Of a DNA stretch of 64,000 nucleotides, positions 272-50,307 are shown one piece after another; position 1 is the stretch's first letter, and every line of letters starts with the position of its first letter. The position numbers were made by a program, and so were the translations under genes. Origin of the DNA: an uncultured Verrucomicrobiota bacterium (GTDB taxonomy: Bacteria; Verrucomicrobiota; Verrucomicrobiia; Opitutales; Opitutaceae). The notes under the pieces were generated by a model that worked only from the letters and a program-made list of their open reading frames with translations, searched no databases and had not been told where the DNA came from. The stretch is from contig CAIUGM010000014.1 in the NCBI GenBank assembly GCA_903898675.1, positions 248,001 to 312,000 on the forward strand, in the 5' to 3' direction.

Positions 272-2263
272 ATGAAATTTCAAACAATGCACGCCACGCT
301 GGCTCTCGCCCCGGCCGGGTTCATGTTTGCCACCGGATTGTTGCTCGGGGGGTGCGCCCACCTCGCGACCAGCGCGGTGCCGGTCGCGCCCGCACCCGTC
401 AGCGTGCAGGTTGCCGATTGGAACGGCTACCTGAAGCAAACGTTTGTGATCAACGGTCAGCCCGCGTATGTGGTCGTGCCCAAGATCGCCGCGCCGGGCA
501 AACCGTGGATCTGGCGCACTTCGTTTCCCGACTATCAGCCCGTGGTCGATCTGGAACTGGTCCGCCAAGGCTGGCACATCGGCTATATTGAAATCCTCGA
601 CCTGCTCGGGGCCGATCCGGCACTGGACTTGATGGACCGGTTTTATGCGCAAGTCCGGTCGCAATGGGGGCTGGCCGAAAAAATGGCGCTCGAGCCCTGC
701 AGTCGCGGCGGCCTGCCTGCCTACCGCTATGCGGCCCGGCATCCCGAGCGGATCGCCTGCCTCTACGGCGATGTCCCCGTCATGGATTTCAAGAGCTGGC
801 CGCTGCAATGGCCGGAGGCCAAGGCCACCGAATGGCCGAAAATCCTGCGGGCTTATGGTTTCAAGAATGACGCCGAAGCCATGGCCTATCAGAATAATCC
901 GATCGACCAGCTCGCGCCCATCGCGCACGCCAAGATTCCCCTCCGTCATGTCATCTGCCTGAACGACCAGGTGGTGCCGCCGGAGCAAAATACGCTGGAG
1001 GCCAAGCGGCGCCTGCAAGCATTGGGCAGCGACCTTGAGGTGGTGTCGGTCAAGGCGAGCAACGATTCCTGGGGCCATCATTTTCCGTACCCCGATGTCT
1101 TTGGCTCGGTCCGCTTCGTGATGGACCACTCCGCCGTGCTGCCGGCCGGACACGAGTATTTCCAATTGCGCGACGGCCTCGCCAATTCCGCGGCCAAGTT
1201 CACGCGGGAAAAGCGCGGTCGCGTGGTGTTTTACGGGGGCTCGATCACCTTCAACCCGGGCTGGCGCGACGAGTTGATGCATTACCTTCAGCAAAGGTTC
1301 CCGGAAACCCGGTTTGACTTCGTCGCTTCAGGAATCCCCTCCCTCGGCTCGGTACCGCACGCGTTCCGGCTGGAGCACGACGTGTTGTCCGGCGGCCCGG
1401 TTGACCTGATCTTCGTCGAGGCCGCGGTCAATGACCACAACTACGACACCTACCCCAACCGGGCGGAACTCGCGCTGCGCGGCATGGAGGGAGTCGTGCG
1501 TCACCTGCGCCAGGTGAATCCGATGACAGACATCGTCGAGATGCACTTTGTCCACGACGAACACCTGCGGATTTTCAAGACCGGGCAGATCCCCTACACC
1601 ATTGCCGCCCACGAGAGGGTGGCCGTGCAGTACGGCTGCCCATCGCTGGACCTGGCGCGCGAGGTCAGCGACCGCATCGACGCGCACGAATTCACCTGGG
1701 CCGGGGATTTCCGCGACATCCATCCCTCGCCCTACGGCCAGCAGCTCTACGCCAACAGCATCACACGCATGCTGGACGCCGCCTGGACCACGCCGGGGGC
1801 GCCACACCCGCACGCCCTGCCGGAGACGGTCGATCCTCTGAGTTATTTCAACGGCCGCTTCGGCCGGCTGACGGAGGCACGTCTGCTCCGCGGCTTCACG
1901 CTTGATCCGGACTGGAAGCCAACCGACGACCGGCCGACCCGCGATGGCTTTGTGCACGTGCCGACGCTGGTCGGTTCCGAGCCGGGGGCGGAGTTCGAAT
2001 TCAATTTTGAGGGACGCGGCGTGGGGCTGCTCATCACCGCGGGGCCCGACGCCGGCATCCTGGAATTCAGCGTGGATGGCAGCGAGTGGAGGCAAATTGA
2101 CACCTGGACCATCTTCAGTCCGTCCCTTCATTTACCGTGGGCGATCATGTTGTCCGATGGACTCGCCCCGGGCCGGCATACCGTGCGGGTACGGATCGCC
2201 GCCGGACATAATCCCAAGAGCACCGGCACCGCCCTGCGCGTTCAGCAACTGTTGCTTAACTAG
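272..2263 (+). CDS. Lipoprotein fusing an alpha/beta-hydrolase to an SGNH/GDSL esterase
   Basis: The 663-residue product starts with a lipoprotein-type signal (LLLGGC, Cys28), so it is probably anchored on a membrane facing the periplasm or outside. Residues about 50-290 look like an alpha/beta-hydrolase: nucleophile elbow 'EPCSRGG' (Ser144), Asp232 in 'LNDQVVPP', and a His in 'SWGHHFP'. Residues about 315-510 are an SGNH domain: 'YGGSIT' (Ser324), 'VEAAVNDH' (Asn387) and 'DIHPSPYG' (His484). A C-terminal beta-rich segment (about 520-663) may bind carbohydrate. Two esterase folds in one exported chain suggest removal of acetyl or other acyl groups from a polysaccharide. The elbow is odd because the usual Gly two residues before Ser is Pro. 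The substrate is unknown. The TAG stop lies in the terminal repeat of the element at 2261-2410. Confidence 0.8.
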   Translation: MKFQTMHATLALAPAGFMFATGLLLGGCAHLATSAVPVAPAPVSVQVADWNGYLKQTFVINGQPAYVVVPKIAAPGKPWIWRTSFPDYQPVVDLELVRQGWHIGYIEILDLLGADPALDLMDRFYAQVRSQWGLAEKMALEPCSRGGLPAYRYAARHPERIACLYGDVPVMDFKSWPLQWPEAKATEWPKILRAYGFKNDAEAMAYQNNPIDQLAPIAHAKIPLRHVICLNDQVVPPEQNTLEAKRRLQALGSDLEVVSVKASNDSWGHHFPYPDVFGSVRFVMDHSAVLPAGHEYFQLRDGLANSAAKFTREKRGRVVFYGGSITFNPGWRDELMHYLQQRFPETRFDFVASGIPSLGSVPHAFRLEHDVLSGGPVDLIFVEAAVNDHNYDTYPNRAELALRGMEGVVRHLRQVNPMTDIVEMHFVHDEHLRIFKTGQIPYTIAAHERVAVQYGCPSLDLAREVSDRIDAHEFTWAGDFRDIHPSPYGQQLYANSITRMLDAAWTTPGAPHPHALPETVDPLSYFNGRFGRLTEARLLRGFTLDPDWKPTDDRPTRDGFVHVPTLVGSEPGAEFEFNFEGRGVGLLITAGPDAGILEFSVDGSEWRQIDTWTIFSPSLHLPWAIMLSDGLAPGRHTVRVRIAAGHNPKSTGTALRVQQLLLN

Positions 2264-2410
2264 GGCCTGTTTGCAAAATAGCCTATGAGCAGATTTCTGT
2301 CATTCTGAACGAAGTGAAGAATCCAGACGGCCTCGAGCGTGGCGCCACGGGTAAGCCTCTGGATCCTTCGCGTTGCTCAGGATGACAATCTCTTTTGCAA
2401 AAACGCCCTA
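2261..2410. mobile_element. 150-bp palindromic MITE-like element
   Basis: Two nested inverted repeats are visible. The outer pair (2261-2280 and 2391-2410) matches at about 17 of 20 positions and starts and ends with TA, as expected if a TA target was duplicated. The inner pair (2298-2326 and 2359-2387, 23 of 29 matching) is the same repeat that encloses the GIY-YIG gene at 49866-50241. No open frame fits inside, so this looks non-autonomous. The left end supplies the stop codon of the upstream esterase gene. It could be one element or one repeat inserted in another. Confidence 0.7.
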
Positions 2411-2461
2411 GGAGTCGCCGACCACCGATTGATCCAACGAACCATTAAACCCCTACCCGCA

Positions 2462-49861: not shown

Positions 49862-49865
49862 GCTT

Positions 49866-50241
49866 TGTCATTCTGAGCGCAGCGAAGAATCCAGCTCAGC
49901 ATGTGCGCCCATGCTTCAAAACACACGTACTGGGTCTACATCTTGGCCAGCCGGCGCAACGGCACGCTATACGTTGGTGTAACCAACGATCTGAAACGCA
50001 GAATCTGGCAGCATAAGACCAAAACCATCGAGGGTTTCACCAAACAGTATAACGTGGATCAGATGGTACATTTTGAAGGTTTTCGGGATGTGAACCAAGC
50101 CATCGGTCGCGAAAAGGAAATCAAGGGATGGCTCAGAAAACGGAAGCTTGCCTTGATCGAGGGGGGAAACCCGCAGTGGGCCGACTTGAGTGCCAGCTGG
50201 TTCGAGGGTCCGCTGGATTCTTCGCTGCGCTCAGAATGACA
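49866..50241. mobile_element. Putative GIY-YIG mobile unit bounded by perfect 29-bp inverted repeats
   Basis: The arms 49866-49894 and 50213-50241 are exact reverse complements (29 of 29), beginning TGTCATTCTGAGCGCAGCGA. The 376-bp unit contains only the GIY-YIG gene, whose stop codon lies inside the right arm. The same repeat, diverged, forms the inner arms of the gene-less element at 2261-2410. No clear target duplication is visible. Mobility is inferred from the perfect arms and the second copy. Confidence 0.7.
49901..50239 (+). CDS. GIY-YIG endonuclease family protein
   Basis: A 112-residue single-domain protein of the UPF0213/YhbQ type. 'YWVYILASRRNGTLYVGVT' holds both halves of the GIY-YIG motif in the form V-Y-I...L-Y-V-G. 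'DLKRRIWQHKTK' supplies the catalytic Arg, and 'AIGREKEIKGWLRKRKLALI' the conserved Glu. It would cut or bind DNA. The last residues 'PLDSSLRSE' are encoded by the right 29-bp repeat. Gene and repeats together make a candidate mobile unit, comparable in layout to REP-associated transposases, although the enzyme family differs. Confidence 0.88.
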   Translation: MCAHASKHTYWVYILASRRNGTLYVGVTNDLKRRIWQHKTKTIEGFTKQYNVDQMVHFEGFRDVNQAIGREKEIKGWLRKRKLALIEGGNPQWADLSASWFEGPLDSSLRSE

Positions 50242-50307
50242 AGCCCCCGGCCATGAATCCCCATTGACGAGCGCGGCGAGATGCCCGATTAATCCGCTTC
50301 CATCCCG

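Follow-up and report, generated by a model that had tools for sequence, protein, structure and literature searches.

Among described systems, the REPtron is the closest to the locus analysed here. In a REPtron, a small gene for a RAYT (TnpA-REP, an HUH/Y1 enzyme) is flanked by inverted REPs that carry a GTAG tag, gene-less REP pairs (REPINs) are dispersed through the genome, enzyme paralogs specific to different repeats occur in one genome, and evolution is slow. A second group, the CGTC-tagged REPs, was described by Di Nocera et al. 2013 (PMC3733652). In that paper, these repeats consist of a CGTC tag (often TGTC), a short palindrome and a CCA tail, and are found as paired units. Their families 1–4 include dRS3 of Neisseria and RPE-4 and RPE-6 of Rickettsia, and the paper reports them from five phyla, names no associated transposase gene, and concludes that they have no dedicated transposase. 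Three further systems were compared with the locus: free-standing GIY-YIG homing endonucleases (I-TevI-like), UPF0213/YhbQ-type small GIY-YIG proteins, and insertion sequences with terminal inverted repeats.

The window (the whole 64,000-nucleotide stretch that we analysed, from an uncultured Opitutaceae bacterium of the Verrucomicrobiota) contains a unit that resembles a REPtron in four respects: inverted REPs flank a small enzyme gene, REP pairs without a gene are dispersed, paralogs of the enzyme within one genome are repeat-specific, and evolution is slow. It is unlike a REPtron in its enzyme, which is a GIY-YIG protein with no listed Y1 match, and in the tag of its REPs, which is TGTC/CGTC. 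The features concerned are as follows.

49865..50242, + strand: whole unit (REP arm, GIY-YIG gene, inverted REP arm), 378 bp
49865..49895, + strand: left REP arm (tag TGTC, imperfect palindrome, tail CCAG)
49901..50239, + strand: GIY-YIG nuclease ORF, 112 aa
50212..50242, − strand: right REP arm, perfect inverse of the left arm
2299..2386, no strand assigned: gene-less inverted REP pair, REPIN-like (locus L036), with arms at 2299–2323 (+) and 2362–2386 (−)

The two arms of the unit are 31 nt each, 100% complementary, and separated by 316 nt (349 bp from start to start). The initial annotation, made from the sequence alone, had described a perfect inverted repeat of 29 bp; the perfection holds and the length is corrected to 31 nt. 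It had also placed a single gene between the arms, with its stop codon and C-terminal residues inside the right arm, and both statements are borne out: the only enclosed ORF is the 112 aa frame on the + strand, and the right arm encodes its last eight residues (LDSSLRSE) and the stop codon (50237–50239). Spurious short database ORFs ('LRSE', 'HSERSEES') presumably stem in many cases from repeats of this kind. The ORF matches the Pfam GIY-YIG family PF01541 with an E-value of 4e-17 and 62.7 bits (cut-off 22.6), and no transposase was found among its Pfam and NCBIfam matches. The gene is, as had been suggested, that of a GIY-YIG nuclease and not of a known transposase, and in this respect the unit differs from an insertion sequence.

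One end of the window arm carries the TGTC tag (TTGTC), and its stem is followed by CCAG, fitting the CCA tail of the published superfamily. The stem itself has five paired bases, mismatches, and then two paired bases, where the superfamily criterion is a stem of 8–9 bp with a loop of 4–5 nt; full 8-bp stems are found in many arms elsewhere. Apart from these stem mismatches, the window arms appear to fit the CGTC/TGTC-tagged REP superfamily, and the repeats themselves are therefore not new. Families 1–4 resemble the repeats found here in tag, palindrome, CCA tail and pairing, with which many of the present arms agree (for example, those of loci L114, L166, and L175), and differ in that a GIY-YIG gene lies between the repeats here.

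A genome-wide search for the arm had been proposed with the initial annotation. It returned 60 copies of the arm core with at most three mismatches (29 on the + strand and 31 on the − strand) in the 3.52-Mb genome, and the reversed arm-core pattern, used as a control in the same genome at the same threshold, returned none. A chance inverted repeat was rejected on this contrast and because control ORFs mostly lack the pattern. Duplicates of the same place were omitted, leaving 26 non-redundant repeat loci that were scanned, with about half of the 60 arms not assigned to loci. Short inward-facing pairs without a gene (45–64 bp from start to start) account for 22 of the 26 loci, and the remaining four comprise three single arms and the gene-bearing unit of the window. 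The short pair is the usual form of the repeat among the examined loci of this genome.

One such pair, L036, lies in the window itself. It had been reported as a diverged gene-less pair at 2298–2387 inside a palindromic element and is real: its arms have two and four mismatches to the consensus, and it is enclosed by an outer 22-nt inverted repeat (2260–2281 and 2390–2411) with 86% complementarity. Short words taken from window positions 2260–2411 were absent from every other locus fetched. Folded as single strands, two gene-less pairs are far more stable than shuffled sequences (z-scores of −8.6 and, for the pair at 2299..2386, −3.6), and the window arm alone folds no better than shuffles (−1.9 kcal/mol, z-score of 0.45). 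The dispersed gene-less pairs are likely to be non-autonomous relatives of the window unit.

Six residues of the nuclease (Y24, G26, R34, H38, E71, and N90) are the same in all 82 sequences of an alignment, and we take them to be catalytic from what is known of the superfamily; the conserved arginine and glutamate that define GIY-YIG proteins are R34 and E71. An AlphaFold model of the protein has a mean pLDDT of 88.2. Its nearest solved folds are UPF0213 proteins (1zg2 and 1ywl among them) and Slx1, with one match under an E-value of 0.001. Slx1 is a nuclease that cuts branched DNA. The dN/dS ratio lies between 0.08 and 0.19 in the 3 of 15 pairs with unsaturated dS, pointing to purifying selection on the nuclease gene.

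To characterise relatives of the gene, one genome per species was scanned with a four-sequence alignment and the best 80 of at least 578 relatives, ranked by protein match, were kept. Of the 80 fetched loci, 73 were usable and seven with short flanks were dropped. Among these best 80 of at least 578 relatives, an inverted-repeat score of at least 16 was found around the gene at 46 of the 73 loci compared with 6 of 536 other ORFs at the same loci, and a score of at least 25 at 33 of 73 compared with 2 of 536. Three of the six control ORFs that reached 16 did so with REPs adjoining the GIY-YIG gene. Loci L081, L085, L086, and L087, from other families of the order, have GIY-YIG genes amid clusters of GTCATTGCGAG-type repeats.

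The type of repeat was characterised by taking each of the 64 trinucleotides as the head of a palindrome with a CCA, CTA, or CCT tail in the 300-bp flanks of the gene. GTC was the only common head beside the gene (75 matches; the runner-up, TCA, had five), and GTC-headed palindromes occurred at 1.59 per kb in these flanks compared with 0.073 per kb elsewhere. Strict REPs were present on both sides of 20 of the 73 GIY-YIG genes and of 1 of 398 ORFs. A looser hairpin detector had too high a background (1,223 matches for GTC in 777 kb, and 1,065–1,741 for six other heads), and the strict one was used.

A set of 27 genomes yielded 80 regions covering 81 of 86 GIY-YIG matches; the five left out were three partial close matches and two weak distant ones. 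A score of at least 16 was reached by 51 of 57 close GIY-YIG genes and by 2 of 23 distant ones (L283 and L290). From their distance, we read the distant genes as probably UPF0213-type, a group that resembles the window protein in being one small domain and near in structure, and differs in that these distant genes in the same genomes mostly lack the pair. Beside one distant GIY-YIG gene of the window's genome (L040), a single REP lies directly 5' at 1426–1450 (G000 C2:215386–215410), and none was found 3' of it. In a plasmid collection, 12 of 33 matching records were examined and nine of the 12 loci scored at least 16, including loci from Rhizobium, S. meliloti, Azospirillum, Sphingobium, Aeromonas caviae, and Neisseria gonorrhoeae. 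The other three (L176, L179, and L182) scored below 16, although TGTCATTCTGAG-type repeats lie to either side of one of these, L179 from Planktothrix. The N. gonorrhoeae record (L175, NZ_CP119142.1) is filed as a plasmid at 2.17 Mb, and in it a GIY-YIG frame with no listed gene lies between dRS3-type repeats.

When all close genes were pooled, 86 of 123 reached a score of 16 and 37 did not. By a rule-based assignment, 23 of the 86 have arms without a GTC head at either end and five have the inner head only. A permissive tally of genes with repeats to both sides, 105 of the 123, was set aside for want of a control. The score was reached in 11 named phyla (Pseudomonadota, Chloroflexota, Bacteroidota, Verrucomicrobiota, Planctomycetota, Acidobacteriota, Spirochaetota, Armatimonadota, Bdellovibrionota, Zixiibacteriota, and Nitrospirota), and no gene reached it in 11 of the 22 named groups, most of which are represented by one gene. 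As far as sequence comparison goes, these counts show that the gene subfamily and matching inverted REPs co-occur in many phyla, far above control genes.

We consider it probable that the window unit is a REPtron-like element, in which a GIY-YIG nuclease gene between inverted TGTC/CGTC-tagged REPs replaces the RAYT. The initial annotation had proposed an autonomous gene-bearing unit with a small gene-less derivative; the gene-bearing unit with small gene-less relatives survives the tests that were run, and its autonomy is something we infer. It had also proposed a little-described repeat family driven by the nuclease. The repeats were already published (PMC3733652), the link to a nuclease appears to be new, and the nuclease may be what drives them. 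Among the papers listed in searches of the published, largely open-access literature, none ties GIY-YIG proteins to these REPs.

Protein lineage and REP type were compared across the close genes. Several genomes encode close paralogs with different REP types, although the type can also be the same, as it is for three paralogs in G195. Between genomes, protein identity correlates with arm similarity (rho of 0.286, with none of 500 shuffles as high, based on the 74 of 120 genes whose arm was usable). One of 500 shuffles was as high when pairs of 60% identity or more were removed. Under 55% identity the correlation was weaker (16 of 500 shuffles), and the lowest protein-identity bin opposes the trend. 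A four-residue motif after E71 divides the proteins into two classes, x-G-[S/K]-R (AGSR in L121, for example) and W-x-R. GTCATTGCGA-type arms were found in 17 of 17 members of the x-G-[S/K]-R class (16, plus one S-S-N-R protein, L247, which has a GCGA-type arm and was counted with this class) compared with 1 of 95 W-x-R proteins rated for arm type (seven more were unrated), such that motif class and arm type agree in 111 of the 112 rows rated for both. In a tree set spanning twenty phylum-level names, four motif/arm changes are needed and supported branches force one, with the motif's own columns kept. At first sight the match suggests a recognition code; several independent origins were not seen in the tree, however, and co-inheritance accounts for it equally well. 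The data show protein lineage and REP type going together, apparently with few independent origins.

Repeat numbers were also compared among the 27 genomes. Five genomes with whole A-type units contain 45, 130, 156, 75, and 65 A-type arms, and of the other 22 genomes, 15 have no A-type repeats and seven have 1 to 44. The genome with 44 (G190) has a partial GIY-YIG match at a contig end (C62:7–159), 32 bases from an A-type repeat (C62:192–216), and G181, G192, and G193 have 10–16 A-type-like repeats with no known A-type unit. None of the five A-type-unit genomes has repeats like dRS3, whereas 15 of the other 22 genomes do. In G192 and G193, close GIY-YIG paralogs of differing REP types lie side by side and the matching dRS3-like repeats are abundant.

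The behaviour of the unit bears on whether it moves. Alignments longer than 200 bp between copies in the same genome numbered 33 and were 61–80% identical; 10 of them span 383–407 bp, approximately arm to arm, at 63–80% identity, and 23 span 238–325 bp, approximately the gene alone. In the one pair for which exact ends were read (L268 and L279), the match begins about 20 bases beyond the left arm and stops at the end of the right arm. L279 (G182 C46) is a frame-broken GIY-YIG copy whose REP arms are complete; its identity to L268, which is intact, is 80%. The homology of the best-matching same-genome copies was shown in these alignments to run about arm to arm. Units with outer heads have a median length of 388 bp (range 349–725), and 31 of 54 are at most 400 bp.

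A comparison of filled and empty sites had also been proposed, and presence and absence were seen in the genus of the window, in Azospirillum, and in Sphingobium. The locus of the window unit is occupied in the same-genus genome G154, and the unit is absent there in G080. G080 lacks a second unit of G154, and the coordinates of the flank matches leave 1 bp between them; at this site G000 has an unrelated segment of 497 bp. Another unit, found in G080, is lacking in G000, where the flank matches are 20 bp apart, and in G154, where they are 64 bp apart. Azospirillum lipoferum has the gene and REP pairs between sufB and sufC, and neither is present in four other aligned Azospirillum records; the sufB–sufC gap of Azospirillum B510 contains an unrelated hairpin. 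A gap in Sphingobium plasmids holds the unit in two aligned records of seven full matches, a single gene-less REP in two, and neither in one, and in Shinella a gap that contains the gene in one plasmid is without it in two more. Neither a target-site duplication nor a fixed target was recognised at the compared filled and empty sites, which are diverged. These alignments show that some orthologous sites have the unit and others lack it. Within the genus, the arms accompany the gene at different loci and its presence varies, which differs from the two patterns that the initial annotation had named as contrary to its proposal (the gene always at one locus without arms, or arms fixed in location).

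In the foremost alternative, the nuclease has been domesticated to process hairpins or cruciforms; it would stabilise REP-rich genomes and be co-inherited with the REPs without mobilising them. We regard this as unlikely, though it accounts for the purifying selection and for a fold like that of Slx1, given the substrates of that enzyme. It also accounts for the low copy number of the gene and its orthologous copy at one locus in G154: A-type copies number one or two per genome in the genus, and no recent burst is seen because copies per type are few and paralogs are at most 80% identical. The locus shared with G154 looks like a case of long residence, and these observations weigh against the preferred reading of a REPtron-like element. 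RAYTs have likewise been described as domesticated (PMC8266576). Domestication is at odds with copies that lie at differing loci with empty counterparts, with homology approximately arm to arm between the best-matching paralogs, and with paralogs of different REP types in several genomes, which would be odd for a general caretaker.

The empty sites are also informative about homing, in which a free-standing GIY-YIG homing endonuclease gene would have invaded the spacer of a REP pair, with the REPs as its cut target, and spread by gene conversion between REP pairs. I-TevI-like enzymes share with the window protein a GIY-YIG catalytic domain and mobile behaviour, the GIY-YIG fold is one that homing endonucleases have, and homing endonucleases are also the best, though weak, matches of the protein in NCBIfam and PHROG. 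The protein differs from them in being 112 aa long with no recognised second domain and in its inverted REP ends. Homing would predict a REP pair at empty sites, and the one Sphingobium site, where two plasmids have a single gene-less REP in place of the unit, goes some way in that direction. However, the empty window site in G080, the compared empty sites of two other units of the genus, and the sufB–sufC gap of the four Azospirillum records all show no REP. Homing into an existing REP pair is not favoured, since most empty sites lack a REP, although one Sphingobium site keeps a single one, and we judge it improbable. The empty sites without a REP imply that arms and gene come or go together.

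Could the gene instead be cargo of another enzyme that recognises the arms, such as a Y1 transposase (RAYT) or an insertion sequence? Y1 transposases are encoded in 14 of the 27 genomes, which are partly drafts, but a search for Y1 alone found no match in the other 13, among them G192 and G193, which have the most dRS3-like repeats (189 and 100, respectively). The one Y1 locus of the window's genome lacks arms of the window kind. The 48 Y1 matches listed gave 28 loci, of which 11 at contig ends were dropped and 17 were tested. Inverted repeats scoring at least 16 were present at eight of the 17, yet by eye none of the tested loci had GTC followed by a palindrome, and three contain GTCA. Two Y1-transposase genes, at L321 and L323, lie between AAGGGGTCAG-like repeats that resemble the published TIRYT motif GGGGWSAS. 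A RAYT is unlikely to be the mover, given the genomes with no Y1 match and the Y1 loci without GTC palindromes, and we think it very doubtful that the gene is a passenger. Ordinary context, in which terminators or REPs flank a small gene by chance in REP-rich intergenic DNA, draws on the abundance of repeats in such genomes, is contradicted by other ORFs of the same loci and by distant GIY-YIG genes of the same genomes, which mostly lack the pattern, and is scarcely credible.

Under the preferred reading, a REPtron-like element with a GIY-YIG nuclease, the nuclease would recognise the tagged hairpin of its cognate REP, either as a cruciform or as a single strand during replication, and nick it. 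From the nick, the REP pair would begin to be copied or relocated, whether or not the gene goes with it, and host repair or replication would complete the reaction. That the nuclease cuts and moves REPs is the part we infer from sequence. We are evenly divided on the broader proposal that GIY-YIG nucleases are the missing engines of CGTC/TGTC-tagged REPs, such that a structure-specific hydrolytic nuclease, not a transposase, spreads these palindromes by hairpin nicking, and the x-G-S-R or W-x-R motif reads the stem.

The connection between nuclease and REPs appears to be new, and the repeats were already known. If the nuclease is the mover, these units would be a new class of mobile DNA, because classes are defined by enzyme chemistry; if it only processes REPs, they would not. 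With a cognate nuclease to name, express and mutate, the origin of CGTC-tagged REPs becomes directly testable. Should a hydrolytic nuclease rather than a transposase prove to be the spreader, it would represent a different chemistry of DNA mobility, and the enzyme–repeat pairs would form a natural collection of hairpin-reading nucleases.
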